From positions 496,001 through 560,000 of the forward strand of contig CALYLX010000160.1 in assembly GCA_944990035.1 (NCBI GenBank): a stretch of DNA of 64,000 nt. Direction: 5' to 3'. The notes under the pieces were generated by a model, which was given only the letters and a program-made list of their open reading frames with translations, searched no databases and was not told the origin of the DNA. Source of the stretch: Clitopilus passeckerianus. Taxonomy: Eukaryota > Basidiomycota > Agaricomycetes > Agaricales > Entolomataceae. Both the position numbers and the translations under genes were made by a program. Each line of letters opens with the position of its first letter. Position 1 is the stretch's first letter. Positions 37,911 through 62,855 of this stretch are shown here, piece by piece.

Positions 37911-40900
37911 TCACTTTATGAACCGGAGTTTGGACTCTTTCAAGGTGTTGTTGCTCCAGTAGGGCAGCTTGATGCGGTCTTGGGTGGGCACCCTCAACCA
38001 ACGACCCTGACGGAGACCTAGCAAGACGGCCAGGTAAGGGGACTGCCGGCTGTTGGATACGCGCCCCAGGATGGCCACTTCAAGTCGGTCGTATTGAGCA
38101 AGATTCCCCGCCTCCACATCGATATTCCAGAGATCCTCGACCTCCAAACGAGACTTCACCACTGCCGACACGTCAACCTTCTGCCCCTTATCATGAGCAG
38201 TAGAACCCCCACTAAGGATCCGCACGCTATAACCTGGGAGCCATATACGCAATCCACGATTTGTCATGGTGTAGGTTTGGTCAATGGAGTCATCCATCGG
38301 GCCCTCCTGCTGCGATGCGAATGAGAGAGGGGAGAAGCAGTCTGGACCTGCCGCGAGCATACTGTTCTGGGTGGATGGCAGTCCTTGCCAGGCAAACAGT
38401 CCCATATCGTCGCTACGCTGGAGGATTTCCACCTGCAACCTATAGAACGCAGCGTTGCCCTCCCCATAGGCAATGGTGAGTGGGACGTCCAGGAGACCGA
38501 TGAGACAATAGGCGATGTCTTCTATCCGAGTTGTACGTCTTTTGGAGACCCAGATTAGAGCATCTCTGGCATGACTGATACCAGGGGTAAAGTCAAGAAG
38601 CGAGTCGACGGGTATTCCTGTAATCTTGGAGATGCGCTCCCAGAGAGGGACATCCAAGATATCGTCGGACACCTTGTCGTTATCGTCGAGGTTGGGCTGT
38701 GTTGGGGTAATGCGGCGCCATGATTTCCCAAAGAACAGGACTCTTTTCGGCGCCAAGAGCTCCTGGAGAGTCCATCCTCGAGTAAACCATAGATCTCTCT
38801 CCAGGGTTTCGAGCGAAGTGGTGTCGGCGAGGTGTATGATGCAAAGCTTGGAGTTTCGGTACCAGCTAAACATCGAACGTATCGATTCCTCGAGTTCAGC
38901 ACTTCTACTCTTGTCGATGCAGCCAGTGTCAAACCAGACGAACTGACAACCGTGTTGGAAGGCGATAGCGCAAAATTCGACGATCTTCACCAAGTCCGCA
39001 CAGCTCTCTCGGACCATGGGAGACATCCCATCACAGAATTCCTTCATAGCCGATAGCAGCCCGTTGTTTGGCTTCCCCGTGGTCGTCGCCGCTCCATCCA
39101 CGAAGCCGCCTACTTTTTCCAAGATTTGTGCGCTGGTGTGCAGGTGGTGCGTATATCCATCGTGCATCAGGCTCCTAAATCCTGATGCGCCGAGTTTCTC
39201 GAACTTGGCGACATCCTGAAAATTCAGTTCACCTTTATCGAGCCAGCGGTGAGAAAATATTGCGTATGCAGCCCGTTCCGCAATCCACTCCTTTGCGCAG
39301 TTCCGGATATCCCCCTCAGTTTGGTTCGACCACTGGGGGCGTTTCTTCCATGAAAAATATTCATCGATGAACCGTGTGATTGCGCTCTGTAGAACACCTT
39401 TGATACCTGGTCGTCGAAGAAGTTCCATGCCTTCGAGATGAAGAAGATAGATGGGAAGTTGGTTTTGAATGTGCTCGTCAATGGCATTGTTCATGGCTTG
39501 AGTGGGAGAAGGTGTTTCAACGGGTTTGTGACGGATCGGATGAATCCACTTGCCTTCTATATATCGACTCTTGAAGATGTAAACGAGTTAGAAATAGTTG
39601 GTGCTAGCCATGGCTCGAGAGAAATGGTATTACCCGCTGAAACGGACGAGGACGCGACACAGAGATGACACTGAGCATATCGCTCTGCTATCAAGAAACC
39701 CTGCGTACCAACTGTAGGAATCATGGATGAAAGCCTCCTAAGCCAAGGTTTGGTATTCTTATGAGATAGGCTTACGTTCTAGAGTCACACATAAAAGTAT
39801 ATTAGTCCAGGCGTGCGTGTAGGCGGCGATATCCTTACTTCCTAAAGGTCATGAAGATTGTGGCGATGTTGGTAAGCAGATATCAATATTCGGACAGATT
39901 CACCTACTGTCTAAAGACAAAAGGTAGACAACACGGTTAGAGGCGATGTACAGGTTCAGCAATGCCACTCACTTTCTAGAGATAGGAAAGCGGGTGTCCC
40001 TGATAAGTAAACAGGTCATAACGCAGATATTGGCATACTCTCTGGGGAGTGGGAATGCATGAGATCGTGTTAAGCACGAGGATATGCATACTCAATAGAT
40101 GCACGAACTTTCTGAGGACCCAAGGCAAACAACCATAGTAAGTTGAAGAAAGGCCCAATTAGATGGCTCTACGCACTTCCTGAAGGGCAAAGGCAGATGA
40201 ACAAGTCAGCGCAAGAATGTAAAGGCTAGGCGAGCTTGCATACTTCCTAAAAGAAGAGATTGAACACCACGGTAAATACTTCGGTCACACCGACTTTAAA
40301 ATTTCACATACATCCTGAGAATGCGAAAGTAAACAGCCACGTAAGTAAACGGAGAGCAGCTAGTCAAACAACATACCCGCTAAGATGTCAAGGTGCACGT
40401 TAATAAGAGCATGGTCATGCATACTCGAAAAGTAGACATACACGCTGTTGAGTGGAAAGTAAATACCCCTAGTGAGTGCATGGTTGTGCTTGCTCGACAG
40501 AAAGTCCACGCACGTACTGGGAAAGCAAAGGTACACGACCGTTTTAAGTGCTTTATGAATCAAAAGTTGGCAGATCCACGTACTTTCTGAAGGGTCGTTG
40601 ACGAAAAGCCATCGTAAGTGTTCCATATGAGCGTCTATACTCAATAGCTTGACGTACTTCCTGATGATGGCACGAAGATAACATCCATAAGCACACAAAC
40701 GAAAATATCACGTACATGCGTGACTTACTTCCTGGAACCGGCGGGACACGACTATAAGTGTATGAACATCGATTGTCAATAGATTCACGCACTGCCTGTA
40801 TGACAAGGCAAACGACCGTGGTAAGCGCAGGCTTATACATCGTCTGGTAGATTCACGTACACTCTGGAGGTTCAATCGATCATGCCAGACAACCATGGTA

Positions 40901-43330
40901 AGATCACGGATATGGATACTAAAGCTTCACGCACCGGCTGGAGATACAGAGCCGGAAAACGTTGGTAGGTGCATGAGAGTACATACCCGATGAATTCACG
41001 TACATTCTAAAGAGGAAGCCCTTGGTCAGCCACCAGAAGTGCATGAACGTGTAAATTGAAGGCGTTTACGCACATACTATAGGTGTGAAGGTGAAGCGCA
41101 ATGGTCAAAGCCTTGAAAATGTGTACTCAGGAGGATTCACCTACCCACTGAAGAGGATGTTCCAAGTAAGTCAACGTACGGCCTATCCACATAGATACAC
41201 TTACATTCTGACCATGCGAAGGCAGATGACCATGGTAAGTTCATGGGTGCGGATACACGACAGACTAATTTGGCGCACGAGCTAAAGAAACCAAACCAAA
41301 CAGCGGTCGTAAGCACAAGAGCCTGATTACTCAGTAGAGTCACCTACATTCTAATAATAGACGGGAGAACGACTATGTTGAGTGCCTGAATGTTCATAGG
41401 TCATGGAACCACATACGCCCTGAGGATGCAAAGCTCCTTGATGAATGAATGGCTACATGTCCCAACGAATTCACGTACTTGCTAAGGAAGTAAAACCGAA
41501 CAAATAAGAGCCCTTCTCAGTCAGTAACATGCGTCCACTCGAGGGCTTCACATACTTGCTGGAGAGGAGAACAGCCATGGTAAGTGCATGAGAATGAACA
41601 CGCAATGGATTCACTCACAAGCTGTAGAAACGGAGGTAAACCACTGTGAATGCTTGGACTGATAGATTCACGCACCCACTGAAGTAGCAAGGCCGAATGG
41701 CCGTAGTAAGAGCGTGAGTTTGTTTTCTTATGCATTCACGTACTTCCTGACAGTAGGGAACCGTGATCAGTAAGCAGTATAACGACACACTTCACCGTTT
41801 TCACGTACTCGCTGACCAAGGGGGACCATTCATGGTAAGTGCATGAAGGCACATATATAATGAATTCGCGTACATACTATAGGAAGCACAGGTGAACACC
41901 CTAGAGTTAGTGCACGATCATGGATACAGGGAGGATTCACATACGCTCTAGAGAAGCCAGGGAGGGTATCGATGATGAGCGGAGGGATGGGTGCTCTGAA
42001 GTTATATCACGTACACGCTGGAGAAACAAGAGCGGACGGCCTTAGTCAGAGCATGAGTCTGGGGATTGGAGAGTTCACGTACATCCTGGGAATCGAAGCA
42101 GACGACCTCAGTGAGCGAATGGATCTCCATACCCTTCATATGCACTCACATTCTGATGGGACGAAGATGCGCAACCGTTTTCAGTGGGTCAATGAATATG
42201 CTTCGTGGATTCACTCACTTTCTGAAGATCCCTGAGTAAGTCTATGAATTTACAGGGTCGATGGATTCCCGCACCTCCTGAGGAACGCAAGCAGATCAGT
42301 GTGGGTCAGAAAAGAAGTACAAACGCCTATTGAGTTCGCCTACTTTCTCCTAGTTGTGAATCCGGAAAGACATGATGAGCAATTTAATGACACTCCCGAC
42401 AGTTCCACCTACTTTCTATCAATAGGTCGGTGATTCGGGACAGTCAGCGACTGAACGAGGATACCTCATGAAATCACATACCCGCTGGTTTGTTGAGGAA
42501 GGCGGGATGTACTGAGCTATCGTCATCCCCGTGTGTGTCGCAGGCACTTACAAGCTGAGTTCATTGCATCAACATAGAGCACGTTTCTTCCGGGCGTTGA
42601 CAAGAGAACTTACTTCCTGGTGTCATTGTCGAGTTGTTGGTTGGTGTGAAAGGCTTAGAGTCTCATGAAGAGTACATACTACCTGGGACGGGAAGACGGT
42701 GAATACCAGATTGATAACTAAGGTCTGATGACGCTACTCACTTTCTAGTTTACAGATTCGCATGGTGCATGAGATTAGAAGGCTTCCTTCAGTATTTAGC
42801 AAGATCACACTTGCCCACTGACAAGTAAATAGACGTTACGCAAGAGTGGCCCCTCAAGTCACGATTCACTCACATCCTAGCGTAAATCGCCGAGTACGAC
42901 AGTTAGGCAATAGCTCTCCTCGAGAGATGGCGATTCTTACAAACTAGAAGAATAGTTGCGAAAGAACGGTTCGGTAAGCTTCATCCCGCCAGAAGATGGC
43001 GGATGCCTACTTCTGTTTCCTTTACATAGCGGCGATATCAGTGAGATCTGTTTCTGGTGAGCTTTGCGGGTCACTCACCGAAGATTTGTTGGCCGTCTGA
43101 AGCAATAGAGTCAACGCAGGTGTGCAGGCCTGGGCTAATTAACACACCATAATATCCGCGATGCTTGTTTCAGAGGTAGAGAATGCGAAGCACCAAAGTA
43201 GGCACCGCCCAGTATTGAACTTAATCTCATCCTTATCGATGGCCGTTTGCCACTCAATACGCCAGGTCCACCCGAGCGCTTGAATGGTCTTGCGGAGAAA
43301 TGCCACATGGCTGTCAGTTCTCCTGCGCTT
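37911..43330 (-). CDS. HET-domain protein with about 50 single-codon exons, copy 1
   Basis: The large 3' exon (39496-37911, 528 codons) carries a HET domain: YAIFSHRWLDKGELNFQDV, FVWFDTGCIDKSRSAELEES, WYRNSKLCIIHLADTTSLE, FTRGWTLQELLAPKRVLFFG and IEDIAYCLIGLLDVPLTIAY. HET domains act in fungal self/non-self recognition and cell death. Upstream, in the same phase, are a 16-nt exon (39569-39554, SRYIE plus one base, with a GC donor GCAAGT), then 50 exons at 39634-42943 of which 49 are exactly one codon and one (42349-42344) two codons, then exons of 9 nt (43019-43011, ETE) and 18 nt (43096-43079, TANKSS), and an N-terminal exon ending DIM at 43148. Introns are 51-74 nt. The N-terminal exon has no ATG in the used frame, so the true start is unresolved; an upstream exon is likely, or the start is lost. 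Confidence 0.8.
39634..42943 (-). repeat. Intron array with single-codon exons, copy 1 (50 exons)
   Basis: Diverged head-to-tail units of about 57-77 bp. On the minus strand each unit is an intron with GTRNGT-like donor, an ACTNAC-like branch site and a YAG acceptor, and consecutive introns are exactly 3 nt apart. The triplets sit, for example, at 42941-42943 (TTT), 42874-42876 (GAT), 42815-42817 (TGG, GC donor), 42742-42744 (AAA), 41676-41678 (TGG), 41004-41006 (AAT), 40658-40660 (GAA), 39908-39910 (ACA) and 39634-39636 (CGG). Only one spacer differs, the six-base GAGAAA at 42344-42349. The joined 51 codons have no stop and are rich in Glu, Lys and Arg; the last part reads SAEEKYRRDEEKRKTENLR. 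Intron interiors are so diverged that array homogeneity cannot explain the strict spacing. Confidence 0.85.
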
Positions 43331-55895: not shown

Positions 55896-58800
55896 CTATT
55901 TTATGAACCAGAGTTTCGGCTCCTTCGCAGGGACACCAGCGGGTAACCGAATGCCCTCTTCGGTGACTATCCTTGACCACTGGCCTTGAGTGCGACCTAG
56001 CAAGATGGCTATGTAAGATGACTCTCGGCCATCTAATACGCTTCGGAGAACAGCCATTTCGATTCGCTTGTATTGGGCGATATCGCGGGTCTTCACTTTG
56101 AACGTCCCCATACCCTCGACCTCCAAACTAAACTCCAGTACTCCCGACTTATCGACCGCCCGGCTCTCGTTGAGGATCCGCGCGCTATGGCCCGGTAGCC
56201 AGATCCGCAGTCCACGGTTTGTCATGGAGTAAGTTTGGTCAATAGAGTCGTCCTCCGAATCCGAATCAAAACCCTCTTTGGACGATGTGCGGAATGAATG
56301 GGGTGAGAAGCAATCTGCAGATGCTGCGAGCATGCTGTTCTGGACGGCTGACTGTCCCTGCCATGCAAACAGTCCCATGTCGTCACTACGCTGGAGGATT
56401 TCCACCTGCAGCCTATAAAACGCTGCATTGCCTTCACCATAGGCAATCGAGAGTGGGATGTCCAATAAGCCGACGAGACAATAAGCAATGTCTTCGGTCC
56501 GAGTTGTTTGCCTCTTCGAGACCCATACAAGGGTATCCATGGCGTGTTTAACCCCTGGTGTGAAGTCGAGAAGCGCGTGGATGGGTATCCCGGTAATTTT
56601 AGAGATCCTCTTCCAGAGGGGAACTTTCAAGACGTCATCCGGAACTTTATCGTTCTCGTTCATCGCAGTCCGCTTTGGTGTTATGCGGCGCCATGATTTC
56701 CCAAAGAATAGGACCCTTTTCGGAGCCAGGAGCTCCTGGAGAGTCCAACCCCTAGTGAACCACGGATCGCGCTGTAGGGTATCCAGAGAAGTGGTATCTG
56801 CGAGGTGCACGATGCAAATCTTGGAGTTTCGGTACCAGTTGAACATCGACCTAATAGACTCCTCGAGTTCGGCGCTCCTGCTCTTGTCTATGCAGCCGGT
56901 ATCGAACCAGACGAACTGGCAACCGTACTGCGAGGCGATATGACAGAATTCGACGACCTTCACCAAGTCCGCACAGCTGTCTCGTAGGATAGGAGACATC
57001 TTATCACAAAACTCCTTCATAACCCCCAGTAACCCAAGGCTCCGTCCCTCCGCGTCCGCCCCGCTTATGAAGTCGCTCACGCTCCCCAAAATCTGTGCAC
57101 TGGTTTGTGGCTTGTGCAGAGATATACCGTCCATCAAGCTCCGGAATCCATCTGTACCAAGCTTCTCGAATCCGAAGACATCCTGAAAATTCAGTTCGCC
57201 CTTATCAAGCCATCGATGAGAGAAAATGGCGTATGGGGTATGTTCCGTGATCCACTCCTTCGCATGACTCCGTACTTCACCCACACTTTTGGTCCTCCAC
57301 TCGTGGCGTTTAGCTTCTGATAAACACCCCTGGATGAAGTCCGTCGCAGCGCTTTGTAAAATACCTTTGATAGCCGGCCTGCGAAGTAGTTTCATATCTT
57401 CAAGGTGAAGAAGATAAATTGGAAGTTGGTTTTGAATGTGTTCGTCAATGACGTTGTTCATGGCTTGAGTAGAAAAAAGTAGTTAATGGGGTCTGAGCCG
57501 GTCCAAAGAAATTCAACATGCCTTCAAAAAGTTGACTCTTCAAGATGGGAGACCGAGTCAGATATCGTTAACATCCTGTATATGTAATAAAAAGGTTTAA
57601 ATACCCGCTGAAATCCATAGAAGCACCCGCACAAAAATAATATTGGTCAGCAAGCGGTTTGGCAGACGCGAGGAAGACGACACACCAACTGTAGGAGCAA
57701 AAAAGAGCAACATCATAAGCCGGGAATACGTGTTCCTGAAAGATGTGCTTACTGCCTGAAGACGCAAATACGTCGAGGTATGGTCAGTATAGGAATGTGT
57801 ATAATCCCAGTGGTCGTACTTGCTAAGGATCCAGAAAATTGGGGCACGGTCGGTGAACAGAAGTCGATACTCGACAGATGCACTTACGATCTTGGAAGAC
57901 AAAAGCAAATGTCCATGATGAGTGCAGGAATGACCGTACTCAATAAAGTCACATACTCTCTGGGGGTGCAAAGGCGGACATTCATGGTCAGTCCGTGCTT
58001 GAAAGCACATGCTTGATGGATTCACTTACTTCCTGAAGATGCGACGGCGAAAAATGATGATAAATGTGCGAATATAAATCTCGATGGATTCACGTACTTC
58101 CTGATAATGCGAAGACACATAATGACGGTAAGTGGATGAACGCGCATACTCGACAGATTCACTTACATCCTGAAGGCGAGAAGGCACAAATCTACGGTTA
58201 GTGGGCGAATGCGAATACTTGATTGGTTCACGTACTTTCTGAACATGCGAAGACACACAATCATGGTGAATGGATGGATGTGCATAACCAATAGATTCAC
58301 GTACGGCCTGAAGACGCGAAGGCACAGGATCATGGTGAGTGTATGAAGGTACATACTCGACAGAATCACATACGAGCTGAAGGTGCAAAGGCACACAATC
58401 ACGGTAAGTGGAGGAACGTGCAGACTCAATAGGTTCACATACCTTCTGAAAAAGCGAAGGCACACCGGTCACAGTAAGTGGATGAATATGAATTATGGAT
58501 ACTCGGAAGAATCACGTACGAGCTGAAGACGCGAAGGCGCAAATTGATGGTAAGTGAATGAAGGTTCCTATTCATTAGATTCACGTACCCTCTGAAGGTG
58601 CGAAGGCACACCCGTCATGGTAAGTAGATGAATGTGCATACTCGATAGATTCACGTACTTTCTGAAGATGCGAAGGCACACAATGATAGTAAGTGGATGC
58701 ATGTGCATACTCGATCGATTTACGTACTTTCTGAAGGTGCGAAGGCGCGCAATCACGGTAAGTGGATGAATATAAATGCTCGATGAATTCACGTACTTCC

Positions 58801-61800
58801 TGAAGATGAAGGCACATAATCATGGTAAGCGGATGAATGTGCGTACTCAATCGATTCACGTACTTCCTGTAGATGCGAAGGCACACAATCATGGTAAGTG
58901 GATAAATGTGACGACTCGATGGATTCACATACTTCCTGAAGGTGCGAAGGTACACAATTACGATAAATGTATGAATATAAATATTTGATGGATTCACGTA
59001 CTTCCTGAAGGTGCGAAAGAACAATCACCGTAAGTGGATGGACGTGCATATTCGATAGATTCACGTACTTGCTGAAGATGTGAAGGCACACAATTAGGGT
59101 GAGTGAACAAACGTGCATACTCGATAGATCCACGTACTCTCTGAAGATGCGAAAGGAGACAATCATGGTAAGTTGATCCATGTGACTATTCGATCCATTC
59201 ACGTACTTCCTAAAGATGCGAAGGCACAAAATGATAGTAAGTAGATGAATGTGCATACTCGATCGATTTACGTACTTCCTGAAGATGAAGGCACACAATA
59301 ATGGTAAGTGAATGAATGTGCATCCTCAATCGATTCACGTACTTCCTGCAGATGTGAAGGCACACATTCACGGTTAGATGAATGCGAATATTTGATTGAT
59401 TCACGTACTTTCTGGACATGCGAAGACACACAATCATGGTGAGTGGATGGATGTGCATACCCAATAGATTCACGTACTTGCTGGAGATGCGAACGCACAC
59501 AATCATGGTAAGTGGAAGAACATGACGACTCGATGGATTCACGTACTTTCTACAGATGCGAAGGCGCACAATCATGATAAGTATATGAGTGTGCATACTC
59601 GATGGATTCACTTACTTCCTGAGGATGCAAAGTCACACAATGATGGTAAGTGGATGAACCCGCAAAGTTAACTGATTCACGCACGGTCTGAAGATGCGAA
59701 GGCACGCAATAATGGTAAGTAGATAAATGTGACGATTCGATGGTTTCACGTACTTGCTAATCATGCGAAGGCGCACAATAATGGTAAGTGGACGAACATG
59801 ACGGCTTGATCGATCCACGTACGACCTGAACATGCGAAGGCGCACAAACATCGTAAGTGGTTGAAGATGCATACTCAATTGATCCACGTACGACCTGAAT
59901 ATGCGAAGTCACATCGCTCATGTTAAGTTGATGAATGTACATACCCAATGAATTAACGTACAAACTGAAGATGCGAAGGCACACAATGATGGTAAGTGGG
60001 TGAACGTGGATACTCAATCGATTCACATACCATCTGAAGATACGAAGGGACATAATGATGATCAGTGGATGAAGTTGCATACGCAATCGATTCACGTACT
60101 TTCTGAAGATACGAAGGGACATAATGATGATCAGTGGATGAAGTTGCATACGCAATCGATTCACGTACTTTCTGAAGATGCGAAGGCACACAATCATGAT
60201 GAGCATATGAGCGTACATACTCGATAAATTCACGTACTTGCTGAAGATACGAAGGCACACAATGGTGGTAAGTGGATGAATGTGCATACTCGATCAATTC
60301 ACGCACGGTCTGAAGATGCGAAGGTACACAAGGATAGTCAGTGAACGAATGTGACGCGTCGATGGGTTCACGTACTTTCTGAATATGCGGAGGCGCACAA
60401 ACATTGTAAGTGGATGAACGCGCATACTCGATTGATTCACATACTAGCTGGAGGTAGGCAGGCACGCAATCACGGTAAGTGGATGAACGTGGATACTCGA
60501 TTGATTCACGTACTAGCTGAAGGTGCAAAGGCACACAATCATAGTAAGTGGATGAATGTACATATCCAATAGATTCACGTACTTTCTGAGGATGCGAAGG
60601 CACACAAATCGTGGTAAGTGGATAGACGTGACGACTCGATGGATTCACGTACTTTCTGGACATGCGAAGGCGCGCAATCATGGTAAGTGTATGAAGACGC
60701 ATACTCAATCGATTCACGTACCATCTGAAGATACGGAGGCACACAACCATAGTAAGTGTATGAGTATGAATACAGGAAAGAATCACGCACGAACTAAGAT
60801 GCGAAGGCACACAATGATGGTCAGTGGATGAACGTTCATATTCAACAGATTCACGTACGCCCTGAAGACGCGAGGACACAGCTCATGGTAGGTGGCTGAA
60901 TGTACATACTCGATCGATTCACGTACAGGCTGAAGATGCGAAGGCACACATTCATTCTAAGTGGATGAATACGCATGATAGATTGATTCACGTACATTCT
61001 TAAGATGCGAAGGCACACAATATGATGATCAGTGGATGAATGTGAATACTCTATCGATTCACATACGAGCTAAAGAAGCGAAGGTACATCATCATGGTAA
61101 GTGCATGAATATGAATACTCGATAGAATCACGTACGAGCTGGAGATGCGAAGACACAATGGTGGTAAGTGGACGAATGTGAATACTTGATCGGTTCACGT
61201 ACTTCCTGACGATGTAAAGGACACAATCATGGTGAATGGATGAATGTGAATACTCGATCGATTCACGTACTCTCTGATGATGCAAAGCCCCACAATCATG
61301 GTAAGTGGATGAATGTGCATACTCAATGGATTCACGTACTTCCTGAAGGTGCGAAGGCACGCAACCATGGTAAGTGGGTGAATGTGAATACTCGAAAGAA
61401 TCACGTACGAACTGAAGATGCGAAGGAACACAATTGTGGTAAGTGGATGAATGTGAATACTCAATCGATTCACGTACTTTCTGCCGATGCAGAGCCCCAT
61501 AAACGTGATAAGTGGATGAATGTGAATCCTCTATCGATTCACGCACCAACTGAATATGCGAAGTTCCACAATCATGGTAAATGGATGAGTATGAATCCTC
61601 GATTGATTCACGTACTCTCTGAACATGTGAAGTCACCGATTACTGTAAGTGAAGGAATGTGCAAACTCGATAGATTCACGTACTCTCTGAAGAAGCTTGG
61701 GTGGACGGCTACAGTAAATACATGAAGGTACATGATGCATGGATTCACGTACTGCCTGATGACGCGAAGGTAGATGACCATGGTAAGTGCATGCATCTGC

Positions 61801-62855
61801 AAACTTGATAGATTCACATACCTCCTGTCCACAAGAAGGCGGGACAACACCATTAGCAAATGGATGTCCATCTTCCACATCTTCACCCACCGACTATCCG
61901 TCGAATAGTATTAGCGGCTGAACGCACTCTCTAGATAGACTCACGTACTTGCTGATAATGGACCAAAGTCCGGATGTAATGGGTAAGTGCCGTCTTCGTA
62001 TACATTTCGTGACTCTTACAATCTACGATCATCTTGTCAGTATTCAACACTTTCCTTTCACATGTTAAATGGGTACATGCCTCCTGGTGATGTCACAATA
62101 CCATTACGCTCTCAGAACTGGCGTTATTCGAAAAATGGACATACGTTCTAGACATCAGACGAACGGGAACAACAATCAGTAGATATCATCTTCCTTTCTG
62201 GCGATTCTACGCACTTCCTAGTGACGAAAATATGCATGACACGTGAGTACAATCTCTCCTTCAATGCTGCGTGGGATTGCACTTGCCCACTTAGAATGGG
62301 AGGGAGATTCAGCATCAATGACTCCTTTCGATGGCCAGCGTTTCACATCAAGATCGACTCACATCCTGATGTAAATGACCGGTAACACAGTTAGGAGCCG
62401 ACTCTTCTCGAAGAGATTGCGACCACCTACAAACTAGAAAAATGGCCACAGGGTGGTGGTCAACAAGCTTCCTCCGAGTAGTGTTTAAAGATCGCTTACT
62501 TCCGTTTCCATTGCCTTTACATAGCGGCGGTGGCCTCAGTGAGATCTATTGTTAAGTAAGCTCGCTAGGCTACGCACCATTGCGTTGTTGTTCCTTTCGT
62601 CGGCCTGTAACGATCCCGTCAGCAAAGAAGTGTAGTGGGATCATGTAGACCACCCACCATGTCTGAACGTGAGGAATGTAGCGAGTTATCAGTCGTAGCA
62701 GAAGTAGAGAAGAGTAAAGGCCCGAGCGGGTTCTCATCATCAGAGAATGCGCTTAAGAGAGCTTTCTGACCTATGGCGGCAATATCCTTGATCTCATCGT
62801 TATCAACATCCATCTGGCGGTGAATAGCCCGTTCATTATCGATGCTGTCGCTCAT
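55896..62855 (-). CDS. HET-domain protein with 71 single-codon exons, copy 2 (678 aa)
   Basis: Predicted complete gene of 76 exons. Exon 1 62855-62658 (MSDSIDNERAIHRQMDVDND.., ending SDM), exon 2 62604-62578 (ADERNNNAM), exon 3 62514-62500 (AMETE), then 71 three-base exons from 62431-62433 to 57605-57607, a 16-nt exon 57537-57522 (SQLFE plus one base, GC donor GCATGT), and the final exon 57463-55896 with the HET domain (YAIFSHRWLDKGELNFQDVF, FVWFDTGCIDKSRSAELEES, FTRGWTLQELLAPKRVLFFG, IEDIAYCL-type motif). All junctions are phase 0 except the last. The single-codon part reads as a Glu/Lys/Arg/Gln-rich helix, so the product would be an N-terminal region, a coiled coil and a HET domain. HET proteins act in allorecognition and cell death; a coiled coil would allow oligomerisation (inference). 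Without the array, the final exon could start at its own ATG (57461, 521 aa). Confidence 0.85.
57605..62433 (-). repeat. Intron array with single-codon exons, copy 2 (71 exons)
   Basis: About 70 tandem units, mostly 69 bp (66-nt intron plus 3-nt exon). On the minus strand each has donor GTACGT or a GTRNGT variant, branch site ACTTAC, ACTGAC or ACTCAC, and acceptor CAG, TAG or occasionally AAG (57891, 60999, 62290). Three bases always separate acceptor and next donor. Two introns have GC donors: after codons 62287-62289 (GCAAGT) and 62081-62083 (GCATGT). The 71 codons contain no stop; 15 are Glu, 12 Lys, 7 Arg, 6 Gln, 8 Leu. The stretch from 59549 to 58374 reads KQKEEERQEEEEKKRLKL and the end ..ERIQALR joins SQLFEAMNN. 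Units in the middle are the most similar to one another; those at the 5' end (61.9-62.4 kb) are diverged, as in copy 1. Confidence 0.87.
60034..60171 (-). repeat. Perfect tandem duplication of one 69-bp intron-codon unit
   Basis: 60034-60102 and 60103-60171 are identical base for base. Each contains one complete intron and one Lys codon (60100-60102 and 60169-60171 on the minus strand), so the duplication adds one Lys residue without changing the frame. Confidence 0.9.

Follow-up and report, generated by a model that had tools for sequence, protein, structure and literature searches.

The window, a stretch of 64,000 nucleotides from the agaric Clitopilus passeckerianus (C157:496001-560000 within a 64.8 Mb assembly of 160 contigs), contains a minus-strand gene in which 71 consecutive triplets, each placed between the acceptor of one intron and the donor of the next, precede an exon encoding a HET domain. 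Judging from the sequence, these triplets are very probably spliced codon by codon into a charged N-terminal stretch that is connected in frame, via an exon of 16 nt, to the HET part. The original prediction, namely that the gene is spliced, with every triplet representing one phase-0 codon and linked to a HET exon, is supported by stop counts, codon conservation, and the fit of the reading frame.

One-codon exons and their coding character

The array consists of an unbroken AG-NNN-G[TC] chain of 71 units with 69 GT and two GC donors, and no in-phase stop occurs in its triplets. Herein, the chain search reproduces the stop-free series of triplets between AG and GT (twice GC) that had been noticed on the minus strand. 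Because the chain finder ignores stops, the stop counts are independent of array detection. The introns are 55 to 78 nt long, exactly 66 nt in 42 of 70 cases, and a 69-bp period is also called by Tandem Repeats Finder (TRF).

In 100 dinucleotide shuffles of the array region, the longest chain has five units, and other exon lengths (1, 2, 4, 5, 6, 9, and 12 nt) yield chains of one or two units there. Within the window's first 39 kb, chains have at most three units at length 3 and up to eight at length 1. An alias of 60 units appears at exon length 7, since a GTNNGT donor contains a second GT four bases later; read as 7-nt exons, all 18 arrays with at least 11 such units carry stops in every phase, and this reading was rejected. 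The opposite strand of the window array reaches a maximum of five units. For two very homogeneous arrays elsewhere in the genome, C36_365 and C34_58, periodicity alone creates opposite-strand chains of 41 and 52 units at length 5. Chain length is therefore weak evidence in such arrays, and the argument relies on coding tests.

These tests draw on a whole family of arrays. A HET protein search of the genome yielded 26 matches, counted as 24 loci, and at 21 of these an array lies upstream on the gene strand (three of the 21 genes are broken). The C13, C113, and C26 loci, searched together with 1.5 kb upstream, contain no chain of more than three units. The arrays hold 11 to 94 triplets, with a median intron of 50, 54 to 60, or 65 to 66 nt. 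PF06985 has 18 matches in the genome at E<=0.001, and each of them falls on an array-bearing locus. DNA searches with two of the arrays gave 23 and 17 matches, all of them at HET-locus arrays; these numbers are lower bounds, and arrays in unrelated genes were not otherwise sought. One member, C36_304 (C36:304496-309755), has an array of 78 codons that is rich in proline and glycine rather than charged.

At the array ends, 14 of the 909 chained triplets were dropped as parts of longer flanking exons or as lying outside the array, leaving 895. At the 5′ end, this concerned two triplets each in C36_304, C34_99, and C106_162 and one each in C155_298 and C106_170; at the 3′ end, one each in C155_282, C155_290, C155_304, C106_166, C106_176, and C106_190. 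The tests on NAG codons, helix, and codon usage used the untrimmed 909 triplets, the intron and codon identities within arrays used 845, and introns longer than 90 nt were excluded from the counts of intron identity and branch motifs.

Every one of the 61 sense codons occurs among the 895 trimmed triplets, which are free of stops in phase 0; the other two phases give 22 and 55 stops, each out of 874. From the base composition at each triplet position, with the positions treated as independent, 54.7 stops are expected, and the probability of finding none is about 3e-25. The untrimmed count is likewise free of stops (0/909), meaning that none of the 14 dropped triplets is a stop.

Selection on the codons can be appreciated in three pairs of counterpart genes, C157_535/C97_330, C155_298/C106_170, and C101_382/C98_376. 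Among their 94 aligned units, 88 codons are identical, five differ synonymously, and one is a replacement (GTA to CAT, three bases), at intron identities of 0.896, 0.916, and 0.948. One of the 94 units, a leading Y, was later judged to be an exon tail. A neutral simulation (98 codons, 5000 runs) gives 19.8 expected replacements and a minimum of three. By these counts, the array codons are under purifying selection in the frozen pairs. Other relatives have diverged: C97_349 and C157_563 show two silent and seven replacement codons in 48 units, and in C97_349 (C97:348129-355893) the HET frame is split, one acceptor of the array has been lost, and the array itself is interrupted by ~1.6 kb. In C155_304/C106_166, with HET exons about 95 to 96% identical, six of 12 codon pairs differ, two of them silently, so this pair is not frozen. 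In the pair alignments, units below the identity threshold or unaligned numbered one of 30 in C155_298/C106_170 and four of 52 in C97_349. Because flank identity amounts to 0.892 for C157_535/C97_330, 0.964 for C101/C98, and 0.856 for the further pair C36_365/C34_58, such counterparts are read as belonging to two haplotypes.

The connection to the HET exon provides a further constraint. The array had been described as linked in phase to this exon; the frame holds, but the array does not abut the exon, since a 16-nt exon and a GC-AG intron lie in between. The HET exon begins two bases ahead of its own codon, and the 16-nt exon takes phase 0 to phase 1. A script located this exon in 18 of 21 genes, in each of which the join is in frame and without a stop; C106_190 is the 19th by eye. 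A 20-nt join exon is equally frequent in the enumeration, because GCATGT and GTATGT donors contain a GT four bases later, but it breaks the frame and was discarded. The intron at the join is of the GC-AG type in all nine genes on C157, C97, C36, and C34 and of the GT-AG type in the nine script-solved genes on C155 and C106.

The array might also be removed as one long intron, or by recursive (ratchet) steps, leaving the triplets absent from the mature mRNA. The frame would survive the skipping of all units, and the HET exons on C157, C97, C36, and C34 have an ATG of their own. Against this stand the missing phase-0 stops and the purifying selection on the codons. Moreover, the HET exons on C155 and C106 lack an in-frame ATG at the join, which requires an upstream start or a shortened protein. 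An intron of 4.8 kb would also be far outside the fungal norm, and removal of the array as a whole, or by ratchet steps, is regarded as improbable. Candidate starts are indeed present upstream. In 10 of 21 genes, including the window gene, an ATG abutting a GT donor lies 207 to 227 nt ahead of the array, and in five of 21 (C155_282, C155_290, C155_304, C106_166, and C106_176) such an ATG lies 54 to 65 nt ahead. In the latter five, the array codons would directly succeed the start codon.

Splicing signals

Codons ending in AG are depleted from the arrays. CAG occurs once and CAA 39 times, AAG twice and AAA 75 times, TAG never, and GAG 43 times compared with 140 for GAA. In 16 HET exons serving as control, the ratios are 200:124 (CAG:CAA), 219:170 (AAG:AAA), and 325:209 (GAG:GAA), giving Fisher p values of 4e-14, 2e-21, and 1e-18 for CAG, AAG, and GAG, respectively. 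An NAG codon would create a rival acceptor 3 nt downstream of the correct one; hence, the depletion fits splicing at each triplet. Of the four NAG acceptors, GAG is the weakest, and the order of depletion matches the acceptor strengths.

A CTNAY branch-like motif is found 8 to 45 nt before the AG in 703 of 863 introns; with shuffled introns, the count falls to 296 of 863. Across 69 of the 71 units of the window array, conservation reaches 0.96 at the branch A, 0.99 at the +5 G, 1.00/0.99 at the AG, and 0.99/0.97 at the GT, the AG and GT values being partly imposed by the chain finder. The triplet bases are the least conserved ones (0.36, 0.55, and 0.58). This distribution, with its maxima at the branch point and the splice sites and its minimum in the triplet, argues against an unspliced minisatellite, be it one encoding 23-residue repeats from 69-bp units or a neutral satellite. 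Such an element would be suggested by the divisibility of 69 bp by three, by several unspliced open reading frames of 133 to 309 aa within the array, and by 36 of the 70 window introns, which have a length of 3n and are free of in-phase stops, so that retention of one adds about 22 residues in frame. However, the unspliced window array contains 49 to 60 stops per frame, and introns of 50 nt give units of 53 nt, which are not divisible by three. Stopless 3n introns are rare in arrays with 50-nt introns. A minisatellite of this kind can practically be dismissed.

The chains contain 13 long gaps, which were sorted by eye. Four are accounted for by 3-nt exons whose donor is GC; three reflect a lost or displaced splice site in genes with a broken HET frame (C97_349, C106_162, and C34_99); two correspond to an early intron of C36_365 and C34_58 that is long; two are leading elements of C106_162, which were trimmed; and two are a 117-nt interval in C101/C98.

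In the splicing process envisaged here, the introns, about 66 (or 50) nt long, would be recognized through intron definition and removed roughly in the order of transcription, because the next donor sits 3 nt past the acceptor just used. Any number of units could be skipped or added without a frameshift since each exon is one phase-0 codon. The same property would suit an array acting mainly as an alternative-splicing device, in which the subset of codons varies per mRNA and many in-frame isoforms arise, as every subset is in frame. The codon-sized microexons of NACHT-ANK genes in Tuber melanosporum are reportedly spliced alternatively (PMC9815663, PMC4986451, PMC3689799, PMC10197012). On the other hand, rival acceptors are avoided at each codon, pointing to precise site use, and codon order is kept in the frozen pairs. 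As the main role, alternative splicing is thus rather unlikely; it is compatible with codon-by-codon splicing as an addition to it.

Turnover of the arrays

Within arrays, introns are far more alike than the codons they separate, with a median identity of 0.55 to 0.92 for introns and 0.22 to 0.46 for codons. The likely allele pair C36_365/C34_58 is the extreme case. Their HET exons are 96.4% and their flanks 85.6% identical, and their introns are about 90% alike, whereas the arrays comprise 45 and 56 codons in differing order. Some introns are identical to the letter yet adjoin different codons. In the core units, each amino acid is encoded by one codon only, eight for eight and five for five; 7.6 to 9.5 and 6.5 to 7.7 extra codons would be expected (p=0.0005 each). 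Nothing comparable was seen in the five other arrays tested. The core codons of this pair are GAA, CGA, CAA, GAT, GTG, TGG, TTC, and TTG, beside near-identical introns of 66 nt. In several arrays, units with the same codon have more similar introns; for C157_553 and C34_58, this holds on either side of the codon with p=0.005. In C36_365, the association between codon and intron site peaks at the intron ends.

These patterns suggest a shuffling of single codons by way of introns, as read mainly from C36_365 and C34_58. Recombination between similar introns would add, delete, and reorder single codons with the HET part remaining constant; some genes would be frozen by purifying selection and others reshuffled. 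It is quite possible, if still somewhat doubtful, that the near-identical introns act as recombination adaptors between single-codon exons of a small codon alphabet, allowing residues to be inserted, dropped, and swapped before a constant HET effector.

The likeness of introns within an array and the adjoining of identical introns to different codons are also what introner-like elements would produce, if they had been inserted at every codon of a formerly continuous coding stretch, the introns being copies and the codons old sequence. To our knowledge, nothing would cause insertion at each codon boundary in phase 0. Introner-like elements are marked by near-identical introns scattered over many unrelated genes; the DNA matches to the two searched arrays are confined to HET loci (lower-bound counts). 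The use of one codon per amino acid together with codon-linked intron variants speaks for whole units having been copied in some arrays. An introner origin is therefore improbable.

Several observations weigh against codon-by-codon splicing and shuffling as described. A 3-nt exon is difficult for the spliceosome, and partial intron retention would be tolerated in the window gene. For C101 and C98, neither script nor eye found a 16-nt join, and their loci have no PF06985 match. The flank identity of 0.649 does not support allelism of C155_298/C106_170. The linkage between codon and intron similarity is not seen in C157_535 or C157_563, and in C34_58 the association of codons with intron sites is weaker, its positions being scattered. 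No array-like N-terminal part was recognized among the 120 listed of 1852 homologues of the HET exon (the 45 longest extensions were inspected, all entries being gene models or calls made without splicing). With untrimmed peptides, the helical moment reaches p<0.05 in one of 21 arrays and the spacing of opposite charges in five of 21, and no single protein shape is common to the arrays, that of C36_304 being proline/glycine-rich.

Predicted gene and comparison with known systems

The model of the window gene comprises 76 exons and 75 introns (72 GT and three GC donors, all with AG acceptors) and predicts 613 residues with a start at 62660 (Table 1). The originally predicted start at 62855 is doubtful. 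The ATG abutting the first donor is preferred, yet 62855, which is in the same frame and would lengthen the protein by 65 residues, is still a candidate; by eye, an earlier ATG is the better start in C36_365 and C34_58.

Table 1. Predicted features of the array-bearing HET genes in the window
Feature	Positions	Strand	Basis or remark
Candidate start codon closing exon 1 (ATG|gtgggt)	62658..62660	-	Preferred start; ATG|GTR position common to several array genes
Predicted exon 2, 27 nt, ADERNNNAM	62578..62604	-	Gene model; aligned with three paralogs
Predicted exon 3, 15 nt, AMETE	62500..62514	-	Gene model; paralog alignment
Array of 71 3-nt exons and 70 introns, predicted peptide FDWENEIQSEARRLKFERELLNPGFMKKLLKTQKKMFVVQTEKQKEEERQEEEEKKRLKLAKDEERIQALR	57605..62433	-	Chain search
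GT-AG intron following the last triplet, 67 nt	57538..57604	-	Gene model
16-nt exon, SQLFE + 1 nt, shifting phase 0 to phase 1	57522..57537	-	Scripted join search
GC-AG intron, 58 nt	57464..57521	-	Gene model; counterpart genes
HET exon including stop codon	55896..57463	-	PF06985
Second array, gene C157_535, 50 triplets, ahead of a HET exon (frame ends 37911)	39634..42943	-	Chain search; HET match

The predicted translation of the window array reads FDWENEIQSEARR...EERIQALR and stands ahead of MNNVIDEH. Its charged fraction is 0.51, and values up to 0.75 are found elsewhere. The stretch had been described as a heptad-like charged helix; the charge is borne out but the heptad is not (helical hydrophobic moment, p=0.88). 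The array peptide of the second window gene equals that of C97_330 at 49 of 50 positions.

The open frame of the HET exon matches PF06985 with 38.2 bits at a Pfam cut-off of 22.5. In the Pfam scan of this 521-aa exon, HET was the sole domain, and neither NACHT nor ankyrin was found; the remaining predicted exons (3, 27, 15, 71 x 3, and 16 nt) are too short for NACHT or ankyrin domains. The predicted structure of the HET exon opens with a helix at residues 2 to 12, and a helix continuous from the array into the HET part may be conceivable. In the gene models of the homologues P0006, P0025, P0027, and P0036, which come from other sources, the first residues resemble, by eye, a translation of the end of an intron preceding the HET exon, as though these genes also had no start of their own at that place.

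The HET domain is associated with self/nonself cell death in fungi, and a role of these genes in incompatibility or cell death is inferred from the domain. The array likely provides the cell-death effector with a variable stretch for sensing, spacing, or assembly; this is the least certain step and follows from analogy with the hypervariable repeats described for Podospora NLRs (PMC4986451).

Up to 94 three-base exons in series are a severe test for splicing theory, and comparative evidence speaks for translation and constraint of one-codon exons. If the single-codon shuffling outlined above is true, it would combine dozens of serial splicing events 69 bases apart with exon shuffling at the smallest possible unit, in a gene family where this could be followed between haplotypes. 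The findings also suggest a reason why the last exon is where gene models of these HET loci start: ordinary annotation would overlook one-codon exons.

Arrays of codon-sized exons are already known from Tuber. The original statement that no gene with tens of adjacent 3-nt exons is known is contradicted by reports on T. melanosporum, the NACHT-ANK genes of which are described, crediting Iotti et al. 2012 (doi 10.1016/j.funbio.2011.11.009), as containing tens or dozens of codon-sized microexons, and alternative splicing of these is said to diversify the proteins (PMC9815663, PMC4986451, PMC3689799, PMC10197012). HET genes and a basidiomycete are a new setting; no report of one-codon exon arrays in either was found in the open-access literature, where most subscription papers are missing.

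Like Tuber nank as reported, the present genes contain tens of 3-bp exons (71 in the window gene and, at the sequence level, 11 to 94 at 21 loci) in a fungal family of the nonself-recognition type. Unlike nank, which combines NACHT with ankyrin in an ascomycete truffle, the window gene belongs to an agaric, with HET as the sole domain found, and is not a nank member. Moreover, the Tuber microexons are said to diversify a C-terminal recognition domain, whereas the array described here precedes HET. A further difference is that codons of the present genes are seen to be conserved in some cases and shuffled in others between likely haplotypes.

Isolated examples of such exons exist as well. Drosophila homothorax also has a 3-nt exon (PMC7392893), and lipS of Dactylellina haptotyla has two (PMC5639578), as opposed to tens in a row. 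The brown-algal ROCO and NB-ARC-TPR genes, candidate immune receptors, resemble the present family by the shuffling of in-phase tandem exons (PMC11378527, citing Zambounis et al. 2012). However, their exon measures 72 bp and encodes one leucine-rich repeat (PMC11378527), whereas the exon here is one codon. Finally, the WD-repeat NLRs het-d/e of Podospora (PMC4986451) and the HET incompatibility genes (PMC10197012) likewise combine HET with a hypervariable part that evolves by repeat exchange. In Podospora, the variation sits in protein repeats (PMC4986451), whereas in C. passeckerianus it sits in single codons between introns.

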